Positions 4,929 to 48,638 of a stretch of 63,866 bases of DNA are shown here, one piece after another (positions within the stretch are counted from its first letter, which is position 1; the number at the start of each line of letters is the position of its first letter). Origin of the DNA: a virus. A model generated the notes under the pieces. The model ran no database searches. It worked only from the letters and a program-made list of their open reading frames with translations, and was not told the origin of the DNA. The DNA is taken from positions 1 through 63,866 of IMG/VR virus record IMGVR_UViG_3300010368_000012; one strand, written 5' to 3'. Position numbers and translations under genes: made by a program.

Positions 4929-5426
4929 ATGAAACTTCAACAATTATTCGATGATGATGGCCGTTTAGAAACTAGAACCGTTGATGATCCAGACCAAGGA
5001 TCAATGGCAACCGGTGATGACTTTCCGTCGAATGGTGAAGAAAATCCAGATGGTGAAGAAAATCCTAACGGTGATTCCTTTCAAGATGGTTTCGATGATG
5101 GAACCGAAGAGAATCAACCAGATTTCGGTGATGTCGAAGAACCAGATGCACCGGTTGTAGATGATCAACTGTGGTCACAGGTGTCATCAAATGATTACGT
5201 TACTGACTTTGAACACTCCGCAAACCAATCTATTCACCCTCGTGTCATCGCCGCACTCGATGCACCTAACTTGAAGAAGCTTCAAGGTCGCATAGAAGAT
5301 ATGATATCAAGACACGAAATGGATAAAGGAAAAGTTGGGTTATACAATGACACAACATATAAATACTTGACTTCCTTACAAAGTTTCGTTTTGCAGGTTC
5401 TGGAAACAAAAACAGAAAAATCATAA
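4929..5426 (+). CDS. Acidic hypothetical protein with a possible capsid-targeting leader, 165 aa
   Basis: It begins MKLQQLFDDDGRLE, a leader like those of the inferred packaged proteins at 37.6-45 kb, although no clean (L/I)-x-E site is seen. Residues 25-90 are low-complexity and acidic with short repeats (NGEENPDGEENPNGD, DFGDVEEPD). The C-terminal 80 residues are helical. It follows the previous stop by one base. Function unknown; prohead core or internal protein is a possibility from leader and composition only. Confidence 0.65.
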   Translation: MKLQQLFDDDGRLETRTVDDPDQGSMATGDDFPSNGEENPDGEENPNGDSFQDGFDDGTEENQPDFGDVEEPDAPVVDDQLWSQVSSNDYVTDFEHSANQSIHPRVIAALDAPNLKKLQGRIEDMISRHEMDKGKVGLYNDTTYKYLTSLQSFVLQVLETKTEKS

Positions 5427-9467: not shown

Positions 9468-10688
9468 TTAGAGGAAGGTAAGGTTTGCAGCGTTAATACC
9501 GACTAGACCGTAGTAGTCAGCAGCATTACCGAGCGAAGTGGACTTATTGGTAAGAGCAACAACCGCATAACGCGACATGAAGCTAACCGTTGGTTCGAAG
9601 GTATTAGGGTCCATTACGACATCCGTACTCATGAGTGGGATGTATGGGCAGTAATAAACACCGGCATCAACTTCTGATCCCTTGTAGCCAACAAGAACTG
9701 GTGTGGAAGTCTGTGCGAATGTATCACAGTAGACTTTCATGGCACCGTTAAGAGTACCAACCAATTTAACGTTGACCGGGCCTTCAAAGTCGCCTTCAGT
9801 TGTTCTAGCGAACGCAGAAGTCTTTGCAGACTGAAGGATCGTTAGTGCATCTGGGGAAACGACGACGAAGTTACCAACACCAAGGCGAGTACGTGCGCCA
9901 ATGTTGTTAGCTTCACGACCGATAAGGATCGCAAGATTAGCGAACTCATCACCAACAAACGTTGCATTACCAGAGATTTTGGTCTGGTCGAACGTGTTGT
10001 CTGCGGTAGCCGCAGGTGGAAGAGCACGTAGGGTGCGAAGAAGCTCTTGGTCGATTTCCAATACCATGTGCTGCGCAATTGCGGCCATGATTTCGGACTC
10101 AAGATCAACACCGTGTTGGGTTGAAGCGTCTTGCGTTGCTTCAATGGTCCAGCGTGCGCTCATCTTACGAGGCTTGGCTTCAACCTGTTCCTTGACGATT
10201 TCGACAGAAACAGCATTACCCGGCATACCTTCTAGAGCAGCAGTATTAGAAGCTGCACCCGGATTGCCAGAGTTTTCATTACCAGAATAAGCTACAGCAA
10301 CATCATTTACATGACGTGGTGCGAACATTTCCTGACCTGCATACGCGCCACCGGCAGTATTTGCATACTTAACACGAAGCGAGTGGATTTGACCGAAAGG
10401 ACCAGTCAGAGGCTGAACACCAACGATTTCGTTAGCGATAACACCCGGAAGGACGCGACGGATCAATGGAAGAACAACTTGGTTCAACGCAGCGATATTA
10501 CCTGCTGCTGTTGCGCCGCCTGATGCGTTCTCCATAAGCATGGCATTGCCACGCATAGCTGACATAAACTTGCCAGATTCACGAAGCACATTATCAAGGC
10601 AAACATTCATGACACTTGACTGTTGATCGTTCAGTCCATCGGTCATTGCTTCTTTAATGAGCTTCCATTTATTTTCTACATTACGCAT
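9468..10688 (-). CDS. 23: Major capsid protein, T4 gp23 family
   Basis: Residues 70-115 carry the gp23 hallmark (VVLPLIRRVLPGVIANEIV, then VQPLTGPFGQIHSLRVKY). The protein has 406 aa, about 115 fewer than T4 gp23, as in compact relatives lacking the insertion domain. Residues 51-53 (LME) before NASGGATAAG fit the (L/I)-x-E site cut by the gp21-type protease, so residues 1-53 are probably a removed propeptide. TAGGAGATTATTAAA precedes the ATG. Codons are strongly biased to one choice per residue, consistent with very high expression. It is the last gene of the minus-strand head operon, followed by a strong terminator. Confidence 0.97.
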   Translation of the reverse strand: MRNVENKWKLIKEAMTDGLNDQQSSVMNVCLDNVLRESGKFMSAMRGNAMLMENASGGATAAGNIAALNQVVLPLIRRVLPGVIANEIVGVQPLTGPFGQIHSLRVKYANTAGGAYAGQEMFAPRHVNDVAVAYSGNENSGNPGAASNTAALEGMPGNAVSVEIVKEQVEAKPRKMSARWTIEATQDASTQHGVDLESEIMAAIAQHMVLEIDQELLRTLRALPPAATADNTFDQTKISGNATFVGDEFANLAILIGREANNIGARTRLGVGNFVVVSPDALTILQSAKTSAFARTTEGDFEGPVNVKLVGTLNGAMKVYCDTFAQTSTPVLVGYKGSEVDAGVYYCPYIPLMSTDVVMDPNTFEPTVSFMSRYAVVALTNKSTSLGNAADYYGLVGINAANLTFL

Positions 10689-10717: not shown

Positions 10718-11800
10718 TTAACGAGGTAGTTTCGCACGAAGGTTCACGATGTCTTGATCGATATCTTCGTCTTTTACGTTCTCATTTTCAAAAACGGCTT
10801 GTCTTGAGCCAGTGCGAAGTGATCCTAACGGGCCGCGCTGGGCCTTCTTAGCTTCGCTGATACGGGTGCGATTACGAGAAGCGCTTTCCGTGACGTGGGG
10901 AAGATACTTTTTGAAAGTAGTTTCAAGCTTTTCAGCTGGAACACCTTCTAGAAGTTCCTTCATTTGTGTCTTTGCAGTACCTTGCAATGGACGCAAAAGA
11001 TTACCCATCTTGCGAACACGAATGGTGTTCTCGGTTAATCTTTCGAGTTTCTTAGAAATCACTTCATTGCTCTCGGCAAGTTTAGTGAGTTTCTTAGCAG
11101 AAGCAGCTTCGACTGTTTTACGAGCCTTTTCTGATTCCTGTAGTTTGGTCTTCAGTGAGTCGAGAATAGAGTCACGGCTGAAGTGTGATGCTTCAAATTC
11201 AGAAGCAAATGCCTCAAACATTTTGCGACCAAAGTTATTCTGGCGAGCCTTGACAATATCTGCCTTATACGCTTCCATAATAGTCTTCAGTTGCTTACGA
11301 GTAAGATGCTCTAGGACTTTCGCCATTTTCTTAACGAGCATTGTCTTATCAGACGCAAGCGATGCACGACCTTCCTTCATTAACTTAACGTGTTGTGCAC
11401 GCTGAAGTTTGAAGTCCTCAACCAATTCGCCAATTTCGCGTTTGATCACTGTGCGGTTAGCAGTTTCAAGCATCTTGACAGTTGCTTTAACTTTCTGAAC
11501 TGCACGTTGATCTGCTTCAGTAACAGCTTTAACAGCCTTTACTTTAGCAACGTGTAGGCGATCAACATCTTGTTTGAATTCGGTAAGATGAGCTGTAATA
11601 GCTTCACGTGCCATCTTGTCCAAAGCTTCTAATAGTCTCGAACGGTCAACTTTATACTGTTCTGCAAGTTCTTCACGAGCTTCATTACGAGCTTGTTCTT
11701 GAGCTTCTGCAATTACAGTTTTAAAAGTTTCACGCAGTTCGACTTTAGTATCTTCAGTAAGAAGGTCCGAATTCAAAAGCTGATCTAGAAATTTTTCCAT
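10718..11800 (-). CDS. 22: Prohead core scaffold protein, gp22-like
   Basis: Position 21-22-23 as in T4, and an almost wholly helical, Lys/Glu/Ala-rich chain of 360 aa with long coiled coils fit gp22. An early LLTED (near residues 14-18) and other (L/I)-x-E tripeptides are potential protease sites, as expected for a core protein that is destroyed on maturation. The start has TATAGGACTTAAAACC. Direct sequence identity to T4 gp22 cannot be judged by eye; identification rests on order, composition and length. Confidence 0.85.
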   Translation of the reverse strand: MEKFLDQLLNSDLLTEDTKVELRETFKTVIAEAQEQARNEAREELAEQYKVDRSRLLEALDKMAREAITAHLTEFKQDVDRLHVAKVKAVKAVTEADQRAVQKVKATVKMLETANRTVIKREIGELVEDFKLQRAQHVKLMKEGRASLASDKTMLVKKMAKVLEHLTRKQLKTIMEAYKADIVKARQNNFGRKMFEAFASEFEASHFSRDSILDSLKTKLQESEKARKTVEAASAKKLTKLAESNEVISKKLERLTENTIRVRKMGNLLRPLQGTAKTQMKELLEGVPAEKLETTFKKYLPHVTESASRNRTRISEAKKAQRGPLGSLRTGSRQAVFENENVKDEDIDQDIVNLRAKLPR

Positions 11801-11811
11801 GGTTTTAAGTC

Positions 11812-12438
11812 CTATAGCTTTAATTCATGTTTCATAAAGCCAAGTATACCTTCTCTAAGATATACTTGAGCTTTGGGGTCTTGCCGAACCATCTCGGCAA
11901 GTTTCAATACTTCATGCCCTCGTTTGGAGGACTGAAGACTTTCAACAATCGGACGTGGATATGCATCCGGTGCCGAAGGGTTTGCAACAACGTCAATAGT
12001 GATGATTTCAAAATCACTGACAACTCCATTGCTATCAACATTTCCTGAACCACGAGAAGAAACTCCCATCTTCATTCCATGTTTAATAAGTCCAGTGATA
12101 ATTTCACCAAGACCAAAAGGCATAATTTCGAATTTGGCATGACCATCCGCACCATCCATCCAGATATCCTTGATCAAGTGAGAAACACGAGCCAAGTCTA
12201 ATCCAAGATTATCAGGATGATCACATTCACCGGGAATAGGACCATCTTTATTAATGCGGCCTTTCATTTGATTGACCGCATTAATAATCTCGTCTTTCGG
12301 ATACATACGACCGTTACGGTTCTTAACATCGCCTTGAATAGCGGTGCCGCTTAGAATAATAGCCTTACCGGTCCCTTCCATCAGTTCGACGGAAGCAATC
12401 TCTGGCATTATTGTTTCAACAAGAACAGAACGGGTCAT
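11812..12438 (-). CDS. 21: Prohead maturation protease, gp21 family (peptidase S77)
   Basis: The S77 pattern is present: RNGRMYPK near residues 41-48, GECDHPDN with His74, and GVSSRGSG with Ser127/Ser128, followed by SDFEIITIDVVANPSAPDA. His and Ser form the catalytic pair of T4 gp21. I choose the ATG at 12438 (MTRSVLVETI), directly after the previous stop; an in-frame ATG at 12486 would add 16 residues overlapping the upstream gene and has no better ribosome site. It cleaves scaffold, capsid precursor and internal proteins after (L/I)-x-E, and such sites are seen in several proteins here. Confidence 0.95.
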   Translation of the reverse strand: MTRSVLVETIMPEIASVELMEGTGKAIILSGTAIQGDVKNRNGRMYPKDEIINAVNQMKGRINKDGPIPGECDHPDNLGLDLARVSHLIKDIWMDGADGHAKFEIMPFGLGEIITGLIKHGMKMGVSSRGSGNVDSNGVVSDFEIITIDVVANPSAPDAYPRPIVESLQSSKRGHEVLKLAEMVRQDPKAQVYLREGILGFMKHELKL

Positions 12439-12439
12439 C

Positions 12440-13180
12440 TTAGTATTCGTTATCCACACCAAGTTCTTCTTCTTCGTCATCACCATCGGTTTTGACTAAT
12501 TTAGCAAGTGCTTCATCAAGTCCATCGATGTTTAGATCAGCGAATTCGTCATCTTCATCTGGATCAAGTTCATCACCAGCTTCTAGATCGTCATCATCAC
12601 CAAGGTCTTCATCGCCAAGGTCAGCTTCTGGATCAGCGTCGTCTTCATCGTCATCACCGAATTCCGGCAAATCAATATCAACGTCTTCGTCATCACCAAG
12701 ATCATCATCACCTTCTTCAGAACCTTCATCGCCAAACTCAGTTTCTGGATCAAACTCATCACCATCGTCATCACCAAGTTCTTCATCTTCGTCATCTTGA
12801 AGTTGTTCGCGCTCGATACCGTCTTGGGCATCGTCGATAGGATCAATTTGTGAATCACCAAACTCATCGTCTCCGGCTTCATCTTCGTCACCAAAAAGCA
12901 TTTCACCACCGGCTTCATCTTCGTCATCGATGATTTCATCTGATTCTGGATCAAACTCAGTTTCATCATCTTGAAGAAGATCGTCGATGCCTTCAGCTTC
13001 ATAAAGTCCAAGTTCTTCAGCAACTTCTCTTGCTAAAGCGATTGTAGAACGTGTAAACTCTTCACTAATTTCTTGTGCTAGTGCTTTACGTACACCAGAG
13101 TTCTGAGAAGACTCTGAAAGTTGAATGTATTTTTCAACTGTGCGAATAATATTTTCGCTAAATGCAGATTTTTTAGCCAT
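12440..13180 (-). CDS. Acidic prohead core protein in gp67/gp68 position
   Basis: It lies between the portal and protease genes, where T4 has 67 and 68. Residues 1-65 are a helical N-terminal domain with GLYEAEG (L-Y-E, a possible protease site). Residues 68-230 are nearly all Asp, Glu and Gly in degenerate repeats (DEDEAGGEM, DLGDDEDVDIDLPEFGDD). TTGGAGTAGCTATT precedes the ATG. Extreme acidity fits a core protein that is degraded to acidic internal peptides after DNA packaging. Function inferred from position and composition; 246 aa is much longer than T4 gp67 (about 80 aa). Confidence 0.75.
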   Translation of the reverse strand: MAKKSAFSENIIRTVEKYIQLSESSQNSGVRKALAQEISEEFTRSTIALAREVAEELGLYEAEGIDDLLQDDETEFDPESDEIIDDEDEAGGEMLFGDEDEAGDDEFGDSQIDPIDDAQDGIEREQLQDDEDEELGDDDGDEFDPETEFGDEGSEEGDDDLGDDEDVDIDLPEFGDDDEDDADPEADLGDEDLGDDDDLEAGDELDPDEDDEFADLNIDGLDEALAKLVKTDGDDEEEELGVDNEY

Positions 13181-37408: not shown

Positions 37409-37591
37409 ATGATCGAATCTGAGTTACGTGAATTTGTTATAGACGAACTACAAACGTTCGTTGATGAAAAACTAAGTGATATCGATTATTGGGTAGAAAG
37501 ATTTGAAGAAGGTGATCTAACACGTGATGATTTTGAAATCATGCGTGATGAGATTTTTCCTTACTCTCAAATACTCCTAGTCACCGAGTAA
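37409..37591 (+). CDS. Small acidic protein, 60 aa
   Basis: Helical and strongly acidic (about a third Asp/Glu): MIESELREFVIDELQTFVDE. AATGGGATAACT precedes the ATG. It ends convergently with the Nudix gene, sharing 15 bases. It might be a nucleic-acid mimic or small inhibitor; this is only suggested by charge. Confidence 0.55.
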   Translation: MIESELREFVIDELQTFVDEKLSDIDYWVERFEEGDLTRDDFEIMRDEIFPYSQILLVTE

Positions 37592-38464
37592 TCTCTTACA
37601 TACATCCTTGAATAGAGAATGAGATAACGTCTTGGCCATCCCGTGATGTAACGGTGATGGCCAATCGTTGTATGAACACCATTCAAACCCATCAACTTCC
37701 CAGTTCTCAGAAACATTGGGTTCAATCTCTGTTTCTATGATGGCGATGAATGTTGTGTATTTGAATTTGTCCGGTATCACATTCTCATGAACTAATATCA
37801 TATCTTTGATTTCAAGATGCATTCGGGTTTCTTCATGGGCTTCACGTACAGCGCCTTGTAACGGGCTTTCGTTACTATCTATAGCACCGCCCCATGTTCC
37901 CCATGTTCGTGGCTCTAGCACGGCCTCAGAGCGAAGGGATAGGCAGAACCGCTTGGTTGTCGTACAGAAGAATAGCACACCAGCACCTTCTTTACCCCAA
38001 TATCCAGTTTTGTTTAATTGTCTGGCATGATCTTCATCAGATTCGGTTATTGGAATTGGTTCCAATCGACCAAAGGTTTTTGAAGCCATATCTTTAAACT
38101 TGGCCATAGCATCATTATTACCACGAATACCAATCACACCATTATCATGATCGATACAACGATAGAGATTATATCTAGAAGACCATTCTCCATTAATCAA
38201 TGCTTCTCTATTAACACCAATAAAGAATTCACAACCGTTTCTTAATGTCTCAACCCAATCCAGACCAGCACCGACTGCCACGGTGCCATGATAATAATAC
38301 CATGCTGATGCTATAAACCATTCCCCGTTCAAGTATACACCGCGCCATCCACTCCTATCATTGAGTATACCGGCTGCTTCGCCGCGAGATACTTTAGCTA
38401 GAATTGGTGTTTTTTTATTGTGGCACTCTATCTTCTTTGATTCTATTAATCTATCAAACTTCAT
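37577..38464 (-). CDS. Nudix hydrolase with capsid-targeting-like leader, 295 aa
   Basis: The Nudix box is at residues 193-215 (GAIDSNE...REAHEETRM), with all metal-binding Glu residues present but the usual late Gly replaced by Arg214. Residues 20-150 form a separate N-terminal domain I do not recognise. The leader MKFDRLIESKKIE contains L-I-E followed by Ser, a potential gp21-type cleavage site, and resembles the leader of the 152-aa protein at 40013 (MKLEALFEAKRIE). I infer that it could be packaged in the head. Likely substrate: a nucleoside diphosphate derivative such as NADH, ADP-ribose or capped RNA. The start overlaps the previous stop by 11 bases. Confidence 0.88.
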   Translation of the reverse strand: MKFDRLIESKKIECHNKKTPILAKVSRGEAAGILNDRSGWRGVYLNGEWFIASAWYYYHGTVAVGAGLDWVETLRNGCEFFIGVNREALINGEWSSRYNLYRCIDHDNGVIGIRGNNDAMAKFKDMASKTFGRLEPIPITESDEDHARQLNKTGYWGKEGAGVLFFCTTTKRFCLSLRSEAVLEPRTWGTWGGAIDSNESPLQGAVREAHEETRMHLEIKDMILVHENVIPDKFKYTTFIAIIETEIEPNVSENWEVDGFEWCSYNDWPSPLHHGMAKTLSHSLFKDVCKRLLGD

Positions 38465-38798
38465 AATGACCACCCGCTTTTAACCATTCTTGTGATGGTG
38501 TATCACCGGAACCGTAATAATTACCACTGAGCCACCATTCCCATACACTAGAATCACCCATTTTTTTCATCACGGCGGGTCCATCAGTTCTATGGATGTT
38601 ACCGTTCCACCACCAAGTATCAAATCGTCCGTTGGGTAATTGGGACGCTGGACCATCAACCCGGTGTTTTTTACCATGTCTAAACCATCTCAAGGTTCCA
38701 TCATGTTGAACAATAGCGGGTCCATCAATTCTATGAAGATCACCGTTTTTATCATAATAAAAAACATTTACCTTCTGGACGACTTCTTTAAGCTTCAT
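38454..38798 (-). CDS. MORN-like repeat protein, 114 aa
   Basis: Contains about four repeats of a 23-residue unit with HR(I/V/T)DGPA and W(W/F)-x-x-G-x-x-H (for example NGDLHRIDGPAIV and HGKKHRVDGPAS). The unit resembles MORN_2 / YwqK-type repeats. The end SQEWLKAGGHYEV is shared by other genes of the cassette. The ATG at 38798 has GCAGGGGATCGTT upstream. The repeats are expected to form beta-hairpin sheets for binding; target unknown. Confidence 0.75.
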   Translation of the reverse strand: MKLKEVVQKVNVFYYDKNGDLHRIDGPAIVQHDGTLRWFRHGKKHRVDGPASQLPNGRFDTWWWNGNIHRTDGPAVMKKMGDSSVWEWWLSGNYYGSGDTPSQEWLKAGGHYEV

Positions 38799-38922
38799 AA
38801 CGATCCCCTGCATCTATCTGTGCCGGTCCATCAGGATTATGTAACCTTCCTTCTGGATCATAATAATAGATGTTGAGAAACCTATCACCACTTTCAGTTA
38901 TATAATGGTGTAATGGTTTCAT
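38788..38922 (-). CDS. Mini MORN-like gene with one repeat, 44 aa
   Basis: A small frame with correct start/stop overlaps on both sides (ATGA at 38919-38922 and 11 bases at the other end). It begins MKPLHHYITESGDRF, has one repeat unit GRLHNPDGPAQI, and ends DAGDRYEA, matching the DAGGHYEA end of its paralogues. It looks like a shrunken paralogue formed by internal deletion, yet still an open gene. Confidence 0.6.
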   Translation of the reverse strand: MKPLHHYITESGDRFLNIYYYDPEGRLHNPDGPAQIDAGDRYEA

Positions 38923-40016
38923 CGTGGCATATCAATTATAGCTTTTTCAATTTGGCGATTATATTTATATGCAAACATTTTAGGAAGAACAAGTGGATCA
39001 ACGACTGGATCATCTGTAGCATCACGTAATTCGGAATCCATTGGTTCACCGTTGGTATCAAATCCCCATTGATGTCTCAACGAATCAGACAACTCTTCAA
39101 TCTCTTCTTCGTATTCATCACCTTCATCACCGCTATAATAATCTAGTGCCGCTGCTCTGAAAAACTCGTCAGAATGAGATTCATCGCGATAATACAATAA
39201 CCATTTCTCATTAGTAGCTTTTCGTAAAGAGATTATCAAATAAGCATCCGGCATCTCACCACGGGTTTTATAATCATCAAACATGTGCTTGCCGTTATTC
39301 TTAGCAGCAACACACCAACGTGTTCTCTTACCAAAATACGCCATGGCTTCATACGTATTGATTTCTGTTATAGACTCATCATCATCATCATAAATCAATT
39401 CAGCATCACCAGTTTCATAGAACCCATCTCGTATAGCCTTGTCATTATGTTTGTTACTCATACCAGAACCAGTATAATCTTCATATATAGCAACAGCTTC
39501 ACCAAAATTTTCCAATTGATAAAAATCCATTCTACCCAAATCTTGACACAATGTGATTAATTTCATTGCCTCTAATACTTTTGTCCGATCAATACCTTGA
39601 TTAACATATACATCATCTGGATTTTCTAACTCCTTCTTCACCTTAGCAAAGAACTTTGTCTTAACAGCTTCAATGTATACTGGTAATGCATCAGCAATAC
39701 GGGTTTGAACATCCTGTAATTTAAACATGTAACGAGGGTAGGCAGTATTCCGATCACTGACATAAGTTTTGATCAACCATAATACATATTTGTCATTAGG
39801 GGTTGGATCAACTTTTTTGAAAATAACCAACACTTTTGCTATTGCACCGAGTAGGATCGAACCCTTTAGGTCTTCTGGTTTATAAGAAGTGAAATTAGCA
39901 CCAGTTAACCACTTCATGTCACCATTAGCTATCAGCTTATCAACAATAGCTTTACCATAGTTCTCTAATGTCTTAGGACCATCGATCTTCTCAACAATAA
40001 TATCAGAAAGTCTCAT
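38919..40016 (-). CDS. Hypothetical protein with capsid-targeting-like leader, 365 aa
   Basis: Leader MRLSDIIVEKI with I-V-E, a possible protease site after residue 9. The body is largely helical. Residues 228-245 (KRTRWCVAAKNNGKHMF) resemble a TRWC(V/T)A segment seen in phage proteins of unknown function. The C-terminal part is strongly acidic (DDDDES, DEGDEYEEEIEELS). No enzyme motif is certain. Packaged-protein role is inference from leader and neighbours. Confidence 0.7.
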   Translation of the reverse strand: MRLSDIIVEKIDGPKTLENYGKAIVDKLIANGDMKWLTGANFTSYKPEDLKGSILLGAIAKVLVIFKKVDPTPNDKYVLWLIKTYVSDRNTAYPRYMFKLQDVQTRIADALPVYIEAVKTKFFAKVKKELENPDDVYVNQGIDRTKVLEAMKLITLCQDLGRMDFYQLENFGEAVAIYEDYTGSGMSNKHNDKAIRDGFYETGDAELIYDDDDESITEINTYEAMAYFGKRTRWCVAAKNNGKHMFDDYKTRGEMPDAYLIISLRKATNEKWLLYYRDESHSDEFFRAAALDYYSGDEGDEYEEEIEELSDSLRHQWGFDTNGEPMDSELRDATDDPVVDPLVLPKMFAYKYNRQIEKAIIDMPR

Positions 40017-40471
40017 CGTAAAACATCACCCTCTTGTAATTCATTAAACGCTAATGTTAATTGATTATGTGCAATGTATGTAACTGATAAAGGTCCAAAA
40101 GTTCTAATCAGTGGTTGCATAAAATTGCGCATCTCGGTTTGATCATCTGTTTCAATTTCAATCACTTCTAACAACCAACCCGATACTGTTTTGAATATGA
40201 CCTTATTACCATGATCCATTGCATCGAGTTCATTCATGGTTGGTCCGAATATGAACAACACATTAGCTCTATTACCGGTTGCTGTCATTATGTTCCCATG
40301 GTAATATGTGAGAGCATCACCAATATCAATACCCTTCGCATCAGAGACTCCACGAATACCAGCAGGCCATGTTGTCATAATGAACGGCACATTGGTTTTA
40401 CGAATACCGGACAGAATATAACCGCGAGTTGTTTCAATTCGCTTTGCTTCAAATAATGCTTCTAATTTCAT
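40013..40471 (-). CDS. Hypothetical protein with capsid-targeting-like leader, 152 aa
   Basis: Leader MKLEALFEAKRIE contains L-F-E before Ala, the best match here to the T4 capsid-targeting cleavage pattern. It is followed by a beta-rich domain (TTRGYILSGIRKTNVPFIMT, VLFIFGPTMNELDAM). The stop overlaps the next gene by four bases. No domain recognised. An analogue of T4 internal proteins is suggested by leader, size and context. Confidence 0.7.
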   Translation of the reverse strand: MKLEALFEAKRIETTRGYILSGIRKTNVPFIMTTWPAGIRGVSDAKGIDIGDALTYYHGNIMTATGNRANVLFIFGPTMNELDAMDHGNKVIFKTVSGWLLEVIEIETDDQTEMRNFMQPLIRTFGPLSVTYIAHNQLTLAFNELQEGDVLR

Positions 40472-41277
40472 GATGTATACCTCGGGTCATTTACTAACTC
40501 ATCAGACTTCTTATCAAATTCATTCAAAATATTGTCATGCACCGCTTTGACTTCTTCATCTGTTGCACGTTCATCTAATCCGCATTTTAATGTAAGGATG
40601 TGTTCGCGTGTCAGTTCATTGAATTTAAAACGCACACGTCTTTGTACAGCAAGTAAAATACTATTTCTATGACCTTTACCCATGTAACCATTGTCAATAA
40701 AATCATTGACACGTAATACAAGTTGTTGAAAGGTTAATAGTCTATAGTTTGTAGGTAGCTTGCCCGGAGTATATGTACTAATAACCATTTCTAATAATTC
40801 GGAATGAAGTCTTATTATAAAACTGTCACTCACTCCTTCATCCAAAGCAGTGGCACCCAATGGTGTTCCCTTGAACCACCACGATTTAATAACACCGAGT
40901 GTGCCATCGGTTTTAATGTGAAATCTAAGTAGTGCAGGATGAGTTTCAGAATGATATGTCATAGAATTATGGAACGAGGCCCGTGTATTCGGTGAAATCC
41001 AACCCATTTTAATAATAGTTCCATCGTCTTTTTTAACTTCAATCAAGGTGGGCAAATCACCCCAACCATCTAAATTGCGATCAAATATTATTCGATTGTT
41101 ACCAGTACCGTATTGCAATCGGTCTTGAGTGTTATACCAGCCTTCAGTATAACCGGGGTTCAATATGATTTTATGCTTACGTGCCCATTCATCAGTTCCA
41201 TCATAGGTTCTGACAATAGCTAGAGCTTGCGCGTAATTAGACTTGTTTGATTCGGTTATGATATGTTTTAATCGCAT
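40468..41277 (-). CDS. Hypothetical protein with capsid-targeting-like leader, 269 aa
   Basis: Leader MRLKHIITESNKS with I-T-E before Ser. The next region is aromatic and Asn/Gly-rich (LNPGYTEGWYNTQDRLQYG), and the C-terminal half helical and basic. The start overlaps the previous stop by one base. Not a recognised family. Packaging is inferred from the leader only. Confidence 0.7.
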   Translation of the reverse strand: MRLKHIITESNKSNYAQALAIVRTYDGTDEWARKHKIILNPGYTEGWYNTQDRLQYGTGNNRIIFDRNLDGWGDLPTLIEVKKDDGTIIKMGWISPNTRASFHNSMTYHSETHPALLRFHIKTDGTLGVIKSWWFKGTPLGATALDEGVSDSFIIRLHSELLEMVISTYTPGKLPTNYRLLTFQQLVLRVNDFIDNGYMGKGHRNSILLAVQRRVRFKFNELTREHILTLKCGLDERATDEEVKAVHDNILNEFDKKSDELVNDPRYTS

Positions 41278-42038
41278 CAGTCACCCCATTTAGGATATTT
41301 AGAGGCAGCTTCTTTAAACCCTTCAGGTGGTTCCATGTCTAATGAAAACACATGGTTGTATATCGTGTATTCTCCTAGTTCCTTGCCATCCAAATACCAT
41401 GCAAGGCCATCCGGTTTACCGCTTTCATCATAATCAATATGGGCTGGTCCAGTTGTTCTATGAAGGTGACTATTGTTATAATAAGCTGTTCTTCTAATAT
41501 TACCGTTCTCCCAGTATGTTTCTAAAGCAGGGCCATCTTCTCTATGTAAAAAGCCACCGTGGCCAACTGGTCCAAGTTTTGCATATCTGTTTAATACTTT
41601 ACCATTTCTTTGATACTCAATCATTGAATACCATTTTTCCTGTGGTTTATATTCTCCCAAAATCATCCAAGTTTGTTCTCTTATTTGTGAACGATCATTA
41701 TCAAACCATGATGTGAAAGCGGGTCCGTTTTCTCTATGGGTTTGATAATGATTACTCCAACGTTCACAATGCGCATTAGGGGTTGTTCCTATTTGTGCAG
41801 GGCCATCTTCTCTATGAAGTTCTCCGTTTTGCATATAAGTTATTACTTCGCCGCCCATAGTACGTTTTTCTATTTTGGCAGGCCCGTTATCATTATGGCG
41901 AATACCATGAATATACCAACTGATTTCATTTTTTGTTATAATAGCTGGACCATCGGGATTATGATAATCTTCGTTCTCATCAAACCAATATTCTTTGAAG
42001 CCGCGATACTTCCATTCTGCGATATCTTTAAGCTTCAT
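41277..42038 (-). CDS. MORN-like repeat protein with leader, 253 aa
   Basis: Leader MKLKDIAEWKYRG with I-A-E, then about seven degenerate repeat units such as NGELHREDGPAQI and NSHLHRTTGPAHI, with Trp/Tyr in place of the hairpin tip. The C-terminal 50 residues (GKELGEYTIYNHVFSLDME) are not repeats and may be a cap. It could be packaged and act by protein binding. The start lies in the preceding GGHYEA-encoding segment, overlapping by 11 bases. Confidence 0.7.
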   Translation of the reverse strand: MKLKDIAEWKYRGFKEYWFDENEDYHNPDGPAIITKNEISWYIHGIRHNDNGPAKIEKRTMGGEVITYMQNGELHREDGPAQIGTTPNAHCERWSNHYQTHRENGPAFTSWFDNDRSQIREQTWMILGEYKPQEKWYSMIEYQRNGKVLNRYAKLGPVGHGGFLHREDGPALETYWENGNIRRTAYYNNSHLHRTTGPAHIDYDESGKPDGLAWYLDGKELGEYTIYNHVFSLDMEPPEGFKEAASKYPKWGD

Positions 42039-42636
42039 AATGACCACCCATGTCTAACCATTCTTGTGGCGGTGTATCATTAACGCCAAAATTGCGACCA
42101 CGCCAATACCAAATAAAATTACCATCATGCCAAATAATAGCAGGCCCATCTTCTCTATGAAGTTGTCCGTTATACCACCATTCTTTAGTACCATTAGATT
42201 TAATATAAGCAGGTCCACCTACACGATTTAGTTCCCCATGATTATACCAAGCTTTAGTACCATCCTTCCAAGACAATGCAGGACCACCTTGTCTATGGCG
42301 TAATCCTTCATAGAACCATTCTTCACCGCCATCACTCCATATGATTGCAGGCCCATCTGTACGATGCTTTTGATCTTTGATAAACCACTCTTGGGTTCCA
42401 TCATAATCAATGCGTGCTGGACCATCTTCACGATGTTTTTTATTACGGTGATACCACACCTTAGTGCCGTCAGCTTCTATACGAGCGGGTCCATCATCTC
42501 TATGACGCCAACCATTATAATACCAATCTTCAGAACCATCAGCCATAATCACGGCAGGACCATCTGTACGATGCTTCTTACCAATCTTGTTATAATAATA
42601 GATGTTGAATCGTTGAACGACTTCGGTAAGCTTCAT
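42028..42636 (-). CDS. MORN-like repeat protein, 202 aa
   Basis: About seven regular 23-residue repeats of the form HR-x-DGPA-x-I-x-x-DG-x-x-x-WY-x-x-G (GKKHRTDGPAVI, GWRHRDDGPARI, NKKHREDGPARI and so on). It begins MKLTEVVQRFNIYYY with no (L/I)-x-E site and ends NDTPPQEWLDMGGHYEA, the shared C-terminal signature. Regularity suggests a single beta solenoid-like sheet. Confidence 0.8.
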   Translation of the reverse strand: MKLTEVVQRFNIYYYNKIGKKHRTDGPAVIMADGSEDWYYNGWRHRDDGPARIEADGTKVWYHRNKKHREDGPARIDYDGTQEWFIKDQKHRTDGPAIIWSDGGEEWFYEGLRHRQGGPALSWKDGTKAWYNHGELNRVGGPAYIKSNGTKEWWYNGQLHREDGPAIIWHDGNFIWYWRGRNFGVNDTPPQEWLDMGGHYEA

Positions 42637-43070
42637 CCCATGCCGTCCGCTTCTAATTTATCCAATAGATCATGTAATCTTTGTTTGTCTGCTTTAATAA
42701 CTTCTCTAAAATGGTTCTTAAGGTATTTGATAATTCTGGGGGTCATATATCCATTCTTATCAAGAGCATCTATAGCATCATCCATTACTTCAACGCGTTG
42801 TGGATCACGTACATGTTTTTTATAATCAGTAATTTGACCCCATTTCTTTTTATGATATCTGTACAAAGCCGCCGTAAATGAGAACATCACCGCGCCCAAA
42901 TCCCTTGATGGTATCATATCATATGCTATCAAACCACCATCAATATAATAAGCACTAGTATTGTTGCCATGATGTATAGCGGCAGGACCATCTAAACGAT
43001 GCTTCTCGCCTTCTTTGTTAAACCATATTTCACTTATGAATCTTCGGTCCATTACTTCTTTAAGTTTCAT
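42633..43070 (-). CDS. MORN-like repeat family member with helical domain, 145 aa
   Basis: Starts MKLKEVMDRRFISEIWF. Residues 15-50 hold one repeat (EGEKHRLDGPAAI); residues 60-145 are helical and charged, possibly a different function fused to the repeat. The start overlaps the previous gene's GGHYET segment by 11 bases. No domain recognised in the helical part. Confidence 0.65.
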   Translation of the reverse strand: MKLKEVMDRRFISEIWFNKEGEKHRLDGPAAIHHGNNTSAYYIDGGLIAYDMIPSRDLGAVMFSFTAALYRYHKKKWGQITDYKKHVRDPQRVEVMDDAIDALDKNGYMTPRIIKYLKNHFREVIKADKQRLHDLLDKLEADGMG

Positions 43071-43902
43071 AATGACCACCTGCATCTAACCATTCTTGGG
43101 ACGGCGTGTCTGATGGTCCTGTAATTTTGTCATCAATACCCCAAAACTTTAATACAGTGCGGTGTACTTTGATGACCAAACACGGTCCATCTAATCGACT
43201 AATCATACGACCTTGTACCCATACGGATAAACTTTCTTCTTTATCCGTTCCAGCTAGACTCGTTCTATCAATAATAATCGATGGTAGATTATTACCACGA
43301 CGCGGTGAATAAGACCCGACTACGGCTTCATCCTTCCATACTCGTGTTCGATATGATGAATAAGGTTGGCGATATGGTGAGTACTCATTTAAATATCGTG
43401 ATAGATTCATTTGCTTCAATCTCGTGGAAATCAGACCGGTCAACGTGGAAACACTATCATTGAAACTTAGTCCATTATCCCTATATATAACAGGCGTGAT
43501 AGAGTCACCGTTCTCTCGTCGGTTCAATACCATTTTACCCGTCTTTGTTTCCCGCCATATTTCTTTATTACCTTCTGGGTTACCTACAATTTCACCATTC
43601 ATAAACCATGTCTCTTTATCAATAAGTTTTCTAGGTAGACCATAATTAGAAATAGTGGCGCGGTGTATACTTGCTGGCCCCTCGATCACGTCACGGTGCA
43701 GTTGACCATGGTCCATCCATGTTGTGACATGCTTGGTTATAATAGCAGGACCATCAGAACGATGTTCTTCACCATCCTTATCAAAATATGTTATTTCTTT
43801 TATTGGGCGACCATCAGACATAGTTCCGCGTTCTTTCTGATAATAAGCGAACTCTTTATCAGCATCTTCTTTGGTGTAAGGTTTTAAATTACTAAGCTTC
43901 AT
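43060..43902 (-). CDS. MORN-like repeat protein, 280 aa
   Basis: Starts MKLSNLKPYTKEDADKE. One clear repeat follows (GEEHRSDGPAII), then looser copies (GQLHRDVIEGPASI, ISRLDGPCLVI) around an Arg- and Ser-rich middle. It ends SDTPSQEWLDAGGHYET. The middle region resembles no known fold by eye. Confidence 0.65.
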   Translation of the reverse strand: MKLSNLKPYTKEDADKEFAYYQKERGTMSDGRPIKEITYFDKDGEEHRSDGPAIITKHVTTWMDHGQLHRDVIEGPASIHRATISNYGLPRKLIDKETWFMNGEIVGNPEGNKEIWRETKTGKMVLNRRENGDSITPVIYRDNGLSFNDSVSTLTGLISTRLKQMNLSRYLNEYSPYRQPYSSYRTRVWKDEAVVGSYSPRRGNNLPSIIIDRTSLAGTDKEESLSVWVQGRMISRLDGPCLVIKVHRTVLKFWGIDDKITGPSDTPSQEWLDAGGHYET

Positions 43903-44990
43903 CTATCTTCCCCAAACCATTCTTCAATATGTTTTTTCAACTTGGCACGATGTTCTTCATTATCATAACCAAGTTTGATCAGATTGTTTAATACATCCAT
44001 CACCTGTTGCTTGTTATATGGATGATAACGATCATGTGTTAGCCGCCACAAAAAATCGAGAGGTATTTTATTATTGGACATATCATTAAAATGATACTGA
44101 CCACCAAACTCACAAAAATACCCATTAACATACCATTGCGCCGTATATGATCCGAACCGTTTGTGTTCTATTACTGCTGGTCCATCCAATCGATGTTCTT
44201 CATCATTCGCATTATACCAACGATAATTGACAAATTGTCCTTCATCATTCTTTGCTTCTGATAAAGCAGCTTGTCTTTTCTCTAGTCTCTTAACATCTGC
44301 ATCACTTCGGTTAGTATTCTCGTGATCCAATGGATCAACATGATACACATCAACTATATTCAATTTGTTCAATGATTTGCTTAATACCAAATAACAGGTT
44401 TTATCAACAGCATTCTTTGCTTCTGATCCCCAACTGTTTTCGTAAATGAAACCATCATATTTAAATTCACTGAATAGTTCACCAGACGCAAACATCTTTT
44501 TAATATTAGAACGAGATACACCTTTTAGTTCCGGTAATAGATCATACAGAATGCCAGCTTTTTTAAGATGACGAAACAACTCTTGATAAGACCATTCAAC
44601 AATGTCAGATACTTTCAGTAATGGTCTTAGATCAAGGAAATGTAATCCGTTCGCATTAACCGCATAAAGATATGAATATTTGGTTTCACGTTTTGGACTG
44701 ATCATGTCTAATAGAAAACCACCAACCCCATCACGTTTTACTCTTTGATGCGTACCATCATGAAGATGCGAACCCCAATCAGATGATGATCCAATTGCTG
44801 TAAACCATGAAGCCAACGCGGCGTCTGATGCAAAATGAATTCCCAAGTTCTGAGAAGCTACAGATGATTTGAACGAAGTGAACTTATTGCGTGATCCATG
44901 GAAAAGCATACCCCTATGAGATGACGCCCACGCCTTGACTTCTTCTAATGGCTTTTCGTAAAGATGTTCGAATAGATTATTAAGCCTCAT
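43899..44990 (-). CDS. ADP-ribosyltransferase-like protein with leader and MORN-like repeat, 363 aa
   Basis: Leader MRLNNLFEHLYEK has L-F-E. Residues 28-60 (GMLFHGSRNKFTSFKS, then LGIHFASDAALASWF) match the HGS...GIHF pattern of ADP-ribosyltransferase folds, and FKYDGFIYEN near residue 200 fits the second core motif. The C-terminal 100 residues hold one repeat (DEEHRLDGPAVI). T4 packages ADP-ribosyltransferase Alt with a leader of this kind. I infer a packaged transferase that modifies host proteins early; the match is by eye and the catalytic Glu is not certain. Confidence 0.7.
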   Translation of the reverse strand: MRLNNLFEHLYEKPLEEVKAWASSHRGMLFHGSRNKFTSFKSSVASQNLGIHFASDAALASWFTAIGSSSDWGSHLHDGTHQRVKRDGVGGFLLDMISPKRETKYSYLYAVNANGLHFLDLRPLLKVSDIVEWSYQELFRHLKKAGILYDLLPELKGVSRSNIKKMFASGELFSEFKYDGFIYENSWGSEAKNAVDKTCYLVLSKSLNKLNIVDVYHVDPLDHENTNRSDADVKRLEKRQAALSEAKNDEGQFVNYRWYNANDEEHRLDGPAVIEHKRFGSYTAQWYVNGYFCEFGGQYHFNDMSNNKIPLDFLWRLTHDRYHPYNKQQVMDVLNNLIKLGYDNEEHRAKLKKHIEEWFGEDR

Positions 44991-45726
44991 AGTGACCACC
45001 TGCATCAAACCATTCTTGTGGCGGCGTGGCTTTGTCACCATAACAATGATATCTAAGCCACCATTCTACAGTGCCATCAGCTCTTACAGTAGCAGGACCA
45101 TCTTCTCTGTGCATCTGACCATGTTTAAACCAATATTGATTACCATCAGCTCTTACAGTAGCAGGACCATCTTCTCTGTGCATCTGATCATGTTTAAACC
45201 AATATTGATTACCATCGGAACTGATAACCGCTGGACCATCATCCCTATGATAACTCCCATTTTGATACCAAGCTTTAAACCCATCATATCTTATGATAGC
45301 TGGTCCATCATCTCTATGATGATTACCCTTACGCCACCATTCCTTAGTTCCATTGGCTTCTATAACAGCTGGTCCATCTTTTCTATCGCGCTGACCTTTT
45401 GTAAACCATTCCTTGGAACCATCTGGTTTTGTAATGGCAGGACCATTTTCTCTATGACGTATGTTTTCAAAATACCACTGTTCCGAACCATCAGCGCCTA
45501 TGAGGGCGGGTCCATCTATTCGATGCAGTCGGCCATGTTGATACCAACCATCACCACCACGTGTACCTGTGGTGGCAGGACCATCATCCCTATGAAGATC
45601 ACCATGAATATACCAAGCTTTATATCCAGTAGCGTCTACAACAGCCGGGCCATCAGATCGGTGACCACGATCTTTCTCATCATAATAATAGATGTTGAAT
45701 CGTTGAACGACTTCTTTAAGCTTCAT
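44980..45726 (-). CDS. MORN-like repeat protein, 248 aa
   Basis: Nine regular repeats (for example DRGHRSDGPAVV, GDLHRDDGPATT, GQMHREDGPATV) between MKLKEVVQRFNIYYY and the shared C-terminus PPQEWFDAGGHYEA. Two adjacent repeats are almost identical in DNA (45074-45211), so this gene is still expanding or contracting. It is closely related to the 202-aa protein at 42028 (same leader). Confidence 0.8.
   Translation of the reverse strand: MKLKEVVQRFNIYYYDEKDRGHRSDGPAVVDATGYKAWYIHGDLHRDDGPATTGTRGGDGWYQHGRLHRIDGPALIGADGSEQWYFENIRHRENGPAITKPDGSKEWFTKGQRDRKDGPAVIEANGTKEWWRKGNHHRDDGPAIIRYDGFKAWYQNGSYHRDDGPAVISSDGNQYWFKHDQMHREDGPATVRADGNQYWFKHGQMHREDGPATVRADGTVEWWLRYHCYGDKATPPQEWFDAGGHYEA
45074..45211 (-). 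repeat. Two near-identical 69-bp tandem repeats
   Basis: Copies 45074-45142 and 45143-45211 differ at about one base (gacc versus gatc) and encode one 23-residue unit each. A third, more diverged copy begins at 45212. The unit length fits one MORN-like repeat. Confidence 0.9.
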
Positions 45727-46103
45727 GGCTCTTCCCTCACGGTTTTGCCATCAATACCAGTAGGATGTTGTGCGAAGTGTGACCATAGTGCTGGCAACCA
45801 TCCACCCGGCATCACACCAGCGGCAACAGTAGCTCTAAAACCATAACCCGGTCCTAAACACCATTGTGATCTTCCGTCATCACTTTTATCTATCTGTGCC
45901 GGTCCATCATAGCGGTGATAATGTGCTTGCCATAACCATGCTTCGAAATCCTTACGGATAACCGCAGGCCCATTGGGATTATGATGAAGACCATGGTCAA
46001 ACCATTCTTGGTCACCATTCGCCGAAATTTCGGCTGGTCCATCAGAACGATGCTGCTCGCCATCAGGGTCATAATAATAGATGCTATACTTTTGGTTCAT
46101 CAT
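45723..46103 (-). CDS. Truncated MORN-like plus W-H-F domain paralogue, 126 aa
   Basis: Three repeats (GEQHRSDGPAEI, HHNPNGPAVI, HYHRYDGPAQI) are followed by WLPALWSHFAQHPTGIDGK and then a stop. In the three following paralogues this Trp/His/Phe motif begins a helical domain of 70-100 residues. Here the domain is missing, so the gene is a truncated copy that may still be expressed. It overlaps the next gene by four bases. Confidence 0.65.
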   Translation of the reverse strand: MMNQKYSIYYYDPDGEQHRSDGPAEISANGDQEWFDHGLHHNPNGPAVIRKDFEAWLWQAHYHRYDGPAQIDKSDDGRSQWCLGPGYGFRATVAAGVMPGGWLPALWSHFAQHPTGIDGKTVREEP

Positions 46104-47119
46104 AATCTCCCAACAAACATAATATCAATTTTATTGATATTATGTTGTTGATTATCTTCGTCACCATAACCAAGATAAGCCAAATGATGTAATTGTTCTA
46201 ATACTTCTGCATGAGTATATGAATTCATTTTGAGTCTTCTGAAAAACGAACTCGGTACATTAGGTTTTGTCGTACCGGTGCTATGATCCAATCCACAAAA
46301 AGTATCACCAACCCACCACTGACATTCATATTTATTGGGTGTGACCATATGTATTTTAGCCGGTCCACCTATACGATGTACTTCACCATGTTGATTAAAG
46401 TATATAATACGGTGTTTAGCCCCATTGATTACCAATCCATCCAAATCAGTTTTAGCAGATTCATTAATAGGTTCTTTATAATGAATTGCCGCATCATAGA
46501 ACGCATCCACAACGCGCCAGAGTTCACCGGATAACATTGACTTTAGTTCTTCATCTTTATCCATGATCTTCCAAACAGCACGCGCCTTATCAGCCATACT
46601 TTGATCAATGTAATCTTTATCGGTTAATGATGTTAAGGCGCTATCCCGTGTAGTTACACCATCAATACCAATAGCATCAGGACCACCAAGTTTATTGAAG
46701 TGGAACCATAGAAGCGGTAACCATCTTCGTGGTAGATCGCCCGGATAATCAAATATTGGAGGGAAACCATGGATCGCCCAATTGTTTTCTTGATATGGCC
46801 CATCATAGCGATGTCGTTTAGCATCAAACCAATACTCTTCGGTCTGAGTTTCATGATCAATCTTTGCCGGTTTATTACCGTCACGATGTAGATGGCCGCC
46901 TAGATAATAAGCTTCCTGTGCAACATGGCCAGACGAATCATATTCAATGGTCGCAGGCTTATCACCGATGCGATGAACAACACCATGAACATAATAGGAT
47001 TCAAATATTTTCTTACCAGTGTGAGAACTATATAGAACGAAAGCCGGTCCACCTATACGATGCCGCTCATCATTCTTATTGAAATAAATTTCGCGAATAC
47101 CGTTATCATTCAATTCCAT
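46100..47119 (-). CDS. MORN-like repeat protein with helical insertion, 339 aa
   Basis: N-terminal repeats (DERHRIGGPAFV, GVVHRIGDKPATI, HLHRDGNKPAKI, KRHRYDGPYQE), then WLPLLWFHFNKLGG...GIDGVTTRDSAL, a helical domain up to residue 220, and C-terminal repeats (GEVHRIGGPAKI). A partner of the same design as the two genes upstream. Function unknown. Confidence 0.7.
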   Translation of the reverse strand: MELNDNGIREIYFNKNDERHRIGGPAFVLYSSHTGKKIFESYYVHGVVHRIGDKPATIEYDSSGHVAQEAYYLGGHLHRDGNKPAKIDHETQTEEYWFDAKRHRYDGPYQENNWAIHGFPPIFDYPGDLPRRWLPLLWFHFNKLGGPDAIGIDGVTTRDSALTSLTDKDYIDQSMADKARAVWKIMDKDEELKSMLSGELWRVVDAFYDAAIHYKEPINESAKTDLDGLVINGAKHRIIYFNQHGEVHRIGGPAKIHMVTPNKYECQWWVGDTFCGLDHSTGTTKPNVPSSFFRRLKMNSYTHAEVLEQLHHLAYLGYGDEDNQQHNINKIDIMFVGRL

Positions 47120-47123
47120 GGAT

Positions 47124-47717
47124 TTATTTATCCGTGGAACCTCTTAATCCTGATAATCTACCAGCACCCAACTTGATCATTGCGTCTACATACATGGTTT
47201 TAACCCAATTGGTTGAAATATCATTGTCCATTTCAAAGTATTCATCCATAAATTCCCAAGCACTATGCACATTGTCTTTGTTTAATTTGGGCAAATAGTT
47301 CTTATCCATCAGGACGGTTAAACAAGACTCTCGCGTAGTTACCTTATCAACCCCGATGCCATTATTATTGTGAAAATGAGTCCATATGAATGCTGGCCAT
47401 AAGGTTGGTGCTTTGTCTTCTGAGGAAGATTGCTCTGCGGGTCCAACATCGTGTAATGACCAAAAAACAAACGTCTCATTATTATTGGTTCGCATTATTG
47501 CAGGTCCATCATAACGATGATATTGACTTAACCACATATAGAAATATCCATCCTTGGTCAGTATAGCCGGTCCATCTTCTCTATGAGTAGCACCCTGCTT
47601 ATAATATTGTTCACGAACTATTTCACCATTGGTATCATACCAAATAGAAGCAGGCTTGCCGGTTCGGTGTTCTTCACCATGTTTATTAAAGTAATGTTCA
47701 GAATAGGCTATAGTCAT
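47124..47717 (-). CDS. MORN-like repeat plus helical domain protein, 197 aa
   Basis: Repeats GEEHRTGKPASI, ATHREDGPAIL and QYHRYDGPAIM are followed by FIWTHFHNNNGIGVDKVTT and a helical domain. Same architecture as its neighbours at 46100 and 47714. The stop of the upstream gene overlaps its start by four bases. Confidence 0.7.
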   Translation of the reverse strand: MTIAYSEHYFNKHGEEHRTGKPASIWYDTNGEIVREQYYKQGATHREDGPAILTKDGYFYMWLSQYHRYDGPAIMRTNNNETFVFWSLHDVGPAEQSSSEDKAPTLWPAFIWTHFHNNNGIGVDKVTTRESCLTVLMDKNYLPKLNKDNVHSAWEFMDEYFEMDNDISTNWVKTMYVDAMIKLGAGRLSGLRGSTDK

Positions 47718-48292
47718 AATGTATCTGATACTCCTAAATCACGTTTGGTGTTAATATAAGCAGTATCAACTATTAATGCTTCTACATATTCGCGTGATGC
47801 AAACATTGAATCCAACGTATCCCAAACTTCATATATCGGATGTACTTCTTCTTCAGTATAATAGCCCTTCTTGATCAATGCAGCTAAACAAGTTTCACGG
47901 GTCATCTTACCATCAACCCCAATATCATTCATGTTATGGAAATGAGTCCATACCACTGCTAACCAATTGATAGGTGGTTTTTTAATTCTTGAAGATATAC
48001 GAAAATACGCAATATCATACAATGTCCAAAAAGTTTGGTGACCACTGGGTGTTGAATTATATGGACCATCATAACGATGACGCTGACCTAACCAATAATA
48101 ATAAGTTACGTCATCACTATCAAGTATCCCAGTTTCAATTACAGCTGGTCCATCGGTTCGGTGAAGTATACCGTCCTTGTGGTAAACTCGTTCAATTATA
48201 TCGTCATTCTTGTCATATACAATTTTGGCAGGACCATCACTACGATGTTTCCTGCCTTCTTTGTTGAAATATTGGACCGTATAACCAAGCAT
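47714..48292 (-). CDS. MORN-like repeat plus helical domain protein, 192 aa
   Basis: Repeats GRKHRSDGPAKI, GILHRTDGPAVI and QRHRYDGPYNS precede VVWTHFHNMNDIGVDGKMT and a helical domain. It shares this with the gene at 47124. Its upstream DNA holds TATAAATA on the minus strand (near 48306-48299). First gene of the repeat cassette. Confidence 0.7.
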   Translation of the reverse strand: MLGYTVQYFNKEGRKHRSDGPAKIVYDKNDDIIERVYHKDGILHRTDGPAVIETGILDSDDVTYYYWLGQRHRYDGPYNSTPSGHQTFWTLYDIAYFRISSRIKKPPINWLAVVWTHFHNMNDIGVDGKMTRETCLAALIKKGYYTEEEVHPIYEVWDTLDSMFASREYVEALIVDTAYINTKRDLGVSDTL

Positions 48293-48299
48293 CGGTTAT

Positions 48300-48638
48300 T
48301 TATAGGTTATGTAATTTCCGTTTGGCCACATTGATACAATCGATCACCTTGTCCAAAGATGCTTGCGGCGACCCATGAACCGGATAAGCTTCAACAAAGC
48401 GCGTGAGTAGGCTCTGTGCGTCTGCAATGATGTCTTCAACGGACTTCTCGTTCTTGATTACACGTTCAATCCAGAGTTCACGAGAGTCTTCGAACATTGG
48501 AGAGTTCCATGTCTGCCAATTGACAGCAGAATCATCAAAAGCTTTGGCGACAAAATAGCCTAACTGTTTCTCAACACCATTGACTTTAATCATGCTCGGC
48601 CATCTATCAGAACCGATTAATACAATATTGTCTTTCAT
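48300..48638 (-). CDS. Hypothetical protein, 112 aa
   Basis: The ATG at 48638 has TTTGGAGATGATC upstream. N-terminal strand pattern (MKDNIVLIGSDRWPSMIKVN), helical C-terminus. It is not a member of the neighbouring array (no leader). It separates the repeat cassette from the array. Confidence 0.6.
   Translation of the reverse strand: MKDNIVLIGSDRWPSMIKVNGVEKQLGYFVAKAFDDSAVNWQTWNSPMFEDSRELWIERVIKNEKSVEDIIADAQSLLTRFVEAYPVHGSPQASLDKVIDCINVAKRKLHNL

Follow-up and report, generated by a model that had tools for sequence, protein, structure and literature searches.

The closest described systems are the internal proteins of phage T4. IPI, IPII, and IPIII carry a short basic-hydrophobic N-terminal leader (MKTYQEFIAE) that ends in (I/L)-x-E, and unrelated mature parts are combined with a gp21-type protease. 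The first 10 residues of IPIII suffice for packaging; targeting depends on residues 4 and 7, while processing is governed by residues 8 and 10, and Asp at position 10 allows targeting and blocks processing (PMC9026906). That review already describes, as a general idea, the uptake of varied cargo by T4-like phages by means of such leaders. T4 Alt, which is also tagged, has a propeptide of 7 residues (PMC9026906). In phiKZ-like phages such as SPN3US, a large variety of head ejection proteins are likewise packaged together with the genome, and the prohead protease cuts several of them. However, several of the SPN3US-type propeptides exceed 100 residues (PMC5694885), and phiKZ lacks short leaders of the type described below.

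In the present study, we analyzed 63,866 nt of DNA from a jumbo, T4-like phage (IMG/VR record IMGVR_UViG_3300010368_000012; hereafter, the window), the features of which are listed in Table 1. The sequence-only reading had noted six proteins starting with M(K/R) and a leader ending in (L/I)-x-E, and proposed that they are capsid-targeting leaders cut by gp21. The ATG starts and predicted leaders of all six genes (37577–44990, minus strand; start codons at 38464, 40016, 40471, 41277, 42038, and 44990) were verified, and their pattern is M(K/R)(L/F)-x2-4-(L/I)-x-E. That list was correct for these genes, but incomplete in that it omitted a seventh leader on a 44-aa ORF. The positions it gave correspond to gene 3' ends rather than to start codons. 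The contig IMGVR_3300010316_000011 carries the cassette at 99.98% identity; therefore, an assembly artefact is unlikely.

Table 1. Coordinates of features in the window (a slash marks a predicted cut)
Feature	Position	Strand	Remarks
gp23-like major capsid protein	9468–10688	-	LME/NASGG, residues 51–53, nt 10530–10538
gp22-like scaffold	10718–11800	-	(L/I)xE-rich; homologue of PA5oct gene adjoining gp23
gp21-type prohead protease (Peptidase_S77)	11812–12486	-	77.1 bits
Nudix hydrolase gene (predicted)	37577–38464	-	leader MKFDRLIE/ at 38441–38464
Internal I-T-E site of Nudix protein	38042–38050	-	residues 139–141, PIPITE/SDEDHA, at joint
HRxDGPA-repeat protein	38454–38798	-	leader-like MKLKEVVQ, without P1 Glu
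44-aa ORF	38788–38922	-	perfect leader MKPLHHYITE/S and HRxDGPA-family remnant
TRWCVA-motif protein	38919–40016	-	leader MRLSDIIVE/ at 39990–40016
152-aa protein	40013–40471	-	leader MKLEALFE/ at 40448–40471
269-aa protein	40468–41277	-	leader MRLKHIITE/ at 41251–41277
HRxDGPA-repeat protein	41277–42038	-	leader MKLKDIAE/ at 42015–42038
HRxDGPA-repeat protein	42028–42636	-	DUF6745 above Pfam cut-off; leader-like MKLTEVVQ, without Glu
HRLDGPA protein	42633–43070	-	leader-like MKLKEVMD, without LxE
HRSDGPA protein	43060–43902	-	start MKLSNLKP, without LxE
ART-like protein (weak assignment)	43899–44990	-	leader MRLNNLFE/ at 44967–44990; ART-like region; C-terminal HRLDGPA stretch
HRxDGPA-repeat protein	44980–45726	-	leader-like MKLKEVVQ, without Glu
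Four upstream HRxDGPA-family genes of the same run	45723–48292	-	no leader; 45723–46103, 46100–47119, 47124–47717, 47714–48292
Late-promoter motif GATAAATA	47125–47132	-	5 nt before ATG of 46100–47119
Late-promoter motif TATAAATA	48297–48304	-	4 nt before ATG of first cassette gene

We consider it very likely that these leaders are T4-type capsid-targeting sequences, and that the tagged cargo is packaged, cut by gp21, and ejected with the DNA; for the window phage, we infer packaging, cleavage, ejection, and function. This is supported by where (L/I)xE lies and by the unrelated mature parts. The 9-residue leaders (L3, I6, I7, E9) preserve the T4 spacing for targeting and processing. The gp21 and the capsid-protein LME named in the sequence-only reading were also found. 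In the gp21-type protease, T4 His85 and Ser140 are conserved in the alignment, and the LME of the capsid protein lies at the expected gp21 cut position. The gp22-like scaffold contains 14 (L/I)xE sites (5.7 expected from shuffling). The cassette nevertheless differs from T4: its leaders are mostly 8–9 residues with the consensus M(K/R)(L/I)xx(L/I)xE, a predicted Nudix hydrolase and HRxDGPA proteins are among its cargo, two domains are joined in one cargo protein that has an internal site, and two relatives have approximately 20 tagged genes per genome, whereas T4 tags three IPs and Alt. Of these features, the present study adds the scale, the divergent consensus of the leader, and the joined cargo bearing an internal site. 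The best reading is that T4-type capsid-targeting sequences have expanded in a specific lineage; the mechanism itself is not new.

Within the window, the leader occurred in 7 of the 15 cassette ORFs and in 1 of the remaining 96 (Fisher p=1.4e-6). It was found at 7/310 near-start codons and 1/721 internal start codons (p=0.0013), and (L/I)xE at residues 8–10 of M(K/R) starts was observed 6 times against an expected 0.5 (p=1.4e-5). When the pattern was relaxed to any M(K/R)...LxE, enrichment was weaker. Since the regular expression was derived from the window itself, stronger evidence comes from genomes that were not used to build it. The shared starts might also be explained by overlapping genes and paralogy, with (L/I)xE arising by chance. 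The starts at 38464, 42038, and 44990 overlap the stop of an upstream ...GGHYE(A/V)* gene, as does the leader-like start at 43070; this overlap alone forces ATG-AAG/AGG-CTT/TTT (ATG-AAG-CTT for GGHYEA*), i.e., M(K/R)(L/F), and the HRxDGPA genes are paralogues. However, the overlap does not encode (L/I)xE, and other junctions precede 4 of the 7 leaders. Similar leaders also occur on unrelated proteins in other gene contexts in three other phages (below). We regard this explanation as highly improbable.

Near-start and internal codons were compared in five genomes held out from pattern-making: a 335-kb relative (G001), a 340-kb relative (G002), Salicola phage SCTP-2, SPO1, and phiKZ. Leaders were enriched near starts in G001 (21/1385 vs 5/3491 internal codons, p=4e-8), G002 (7/1033 vs 0/3241, p=5e-5), and SCTP-2 (21/1172 vs 3/2781, p=6e-9), and a peak of (L/I)xE at residues 8–10 was observed in G001 (23 vs 4.0) and SCTP-2 (29 vs 6.4). 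The search of relatives for the leader on other proteins thus succeeded in all three, and it refuted overlap and paralogy as a full account. The pattern was not enriched at gene starts in SPO1 or phiKZ, both of which lack Peptidase_S77. Capsid targeting would also explain why the leaders recur in other phages that carry gp21 and not in these two controls. In total, 77 leader proteins of five phages fell into 59 mature families, and synonymous codon choices in the leaders varied. Because leaders stand on approximately 59 unrelated families with varied codons, the peptide is what is kept. MRLNNLFE recurs identically in SCTP-2 on a different protein (L130:6503-8710), and G001 relatives of the HRxDGPA protein 41277–42038 start with MRLRQLVE/ and MRLNQIVE/. 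On the other hand, 121Q, RaK2, and T4 showed no genome-wide enrichment despite having gp21; therefore, the expansion is lineage-limited. The 152-aa and 269-aa proteins had no family match in Pfam or PHROG, and IMG/VR scans with the ART-like, TRWC, and 269-aa proteins gave no matches beyond the near-identical contig.

Not every leader-like start carries the cleavage Glu. Five more cassette genes begin with MKL starts without it (MKLKEVVQ twice, MKLTEVVQ, MKLKEVMD, and MKLSNLKP), as does the protein at 4929 (MKLQQLFD). These starts, together with the T4 Asp substitution at position 10 that targets yet blocks processing (PMC9026906), suit an alternative in which the leader targets the head, but many proteins stay uncut or the leader only aids core assembly, such that cargo release is not general. 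Glu is nevertheless present in seven cassette leaders and dozens elsewhere, and (L/I)xE recurs both at the joint of the window Nudix protein and, in two other phages, ahead of the Nudix domain. We judge this alternative unlikely.

The Nudix hydrolase proposed in the sequence-only reading is firmly assigned by sequence (Pfam NUDIX, 44.3 bits against a curated cut-off of 21.1). In blastp, this protein matched two separate G001 genes (L049:1466-1963 and L049:1984-2484), each with its own leader. The I-T-E at the joint aligned with a G001 leader end (LFE/GDMDHA) and with SCTP-2 ILFE/SDPDEV, which lies at the equivalent position of the SCTP-2 Nudix protein. This I-T-E is probably a second gp21 cut site, judging from the alignment.

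The presence of leader proteins in virions is supported through annotated relatives, for some proteins of PA5oct, RaK2, and 121Q; these annotations and the I-T-E at the Nudix joint also fit capsid targeting. The PA5oct relative of the TRWC protein, EST35_0205, is a virion protein by ESI-MS/MS with the leader MKLFEVFTLYE/, and several paralogues in SCTP-2 have the leader MKVKHITQYLFE/. The annotation has ESI-MS/MS notes for PA5oct leader proteins 0205, 0150, and 0238, and 0238 is a second leader protein common to PA5oct and SCTP-2. A leader protein directly before the exonuclease gene is structural per record annotation in 121Q (gp28) and RaK2 (ORF136). In PA5oct, 3/4 leader proteins and 82/180 others were detected by MS (p=0.26), a difference in the right direction from a comparison with no power. 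Since proteins of both head and tail, as well as some enzymes, appear in the PA5oct MS list, the leader could instead be a signal of another kind, for example one for loading into the tail, for a membrane site, or for an adaptor inside the infected cell. We consider this very unlikely; the leaders match the gp21 specificity and spacing from T4 mutation work (PMC9026906), and neither SPO1 nor phiKZ, the controls that lack Peptidase_S77, has them.

The sequence-only reading had called the protein at 43899–44990 ADP-ribosyltransferase-like. This assignment is weak: the ART-PolyVal Pfam match was sub-threshold (15.6 bits vs a cut-off of 31.2, E=0.028). ADP-ribosyltransferases are expected to have their catalytic Glu in an EYVVF-type strand. 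The ART-like region reads MLFHGS..GIHFAS.., and CYLVL stands where this Glu is expected; the usual Glu is not evident. A PDB sequence search with this protein found no relative, and a single-sequence AlphaFold model was unusable as a fold (pLDDT 35). The protein resembles T4 Alt in combining an ART-like region with a short N-terminal propeptide; however, no sequence relation to Alt was detected. A role in immediate attack on the host, as was suggested, may nonetheless apply.

In the favored reading, tagged proteins would bind the prohead scaffold core through the leader late in infection. The gp21 protease would then cut after (L/I)-x-E, freeing mature proteins inside the head, and these would be ejected with the DNA into the next host. 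The cassette would then be a store of interchangeable head cargo in which Nudix, TRWC-motif, ART-like, and HRxDGPA-repeat proteins stand beside others with no assigned family. The Nudix protein may consist of two cargo domains, separate genes in a relative, that were joined with the second cut site kept. On a wider scale, one short leader may serve the jumbo T4-like lineage as a plug-in tag for approximately 20 or more unrelated injected proteins per genome, including joined cargo cut apart in the capsid; we consider the balance on this proposal to be even. If the capsid-targeting interpretation is right, the leader would predict, from sequence alone, which unknown jumbo-phage proteins are injected as infection begins, a stage at which proteins for anti-defence and host take-over are to be expected. 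Dozens of hypothetical proteins would become testable candidates, and the leaders could serve as natural tags to load large phage heads with foreign proteins.

The ATAAATA late-promoter motif was found upstream of 8/21 leader genes in G001 and 23/528 other genes (p=5e-6); copies of the late-promoter motif in the window are listed in Table 1.

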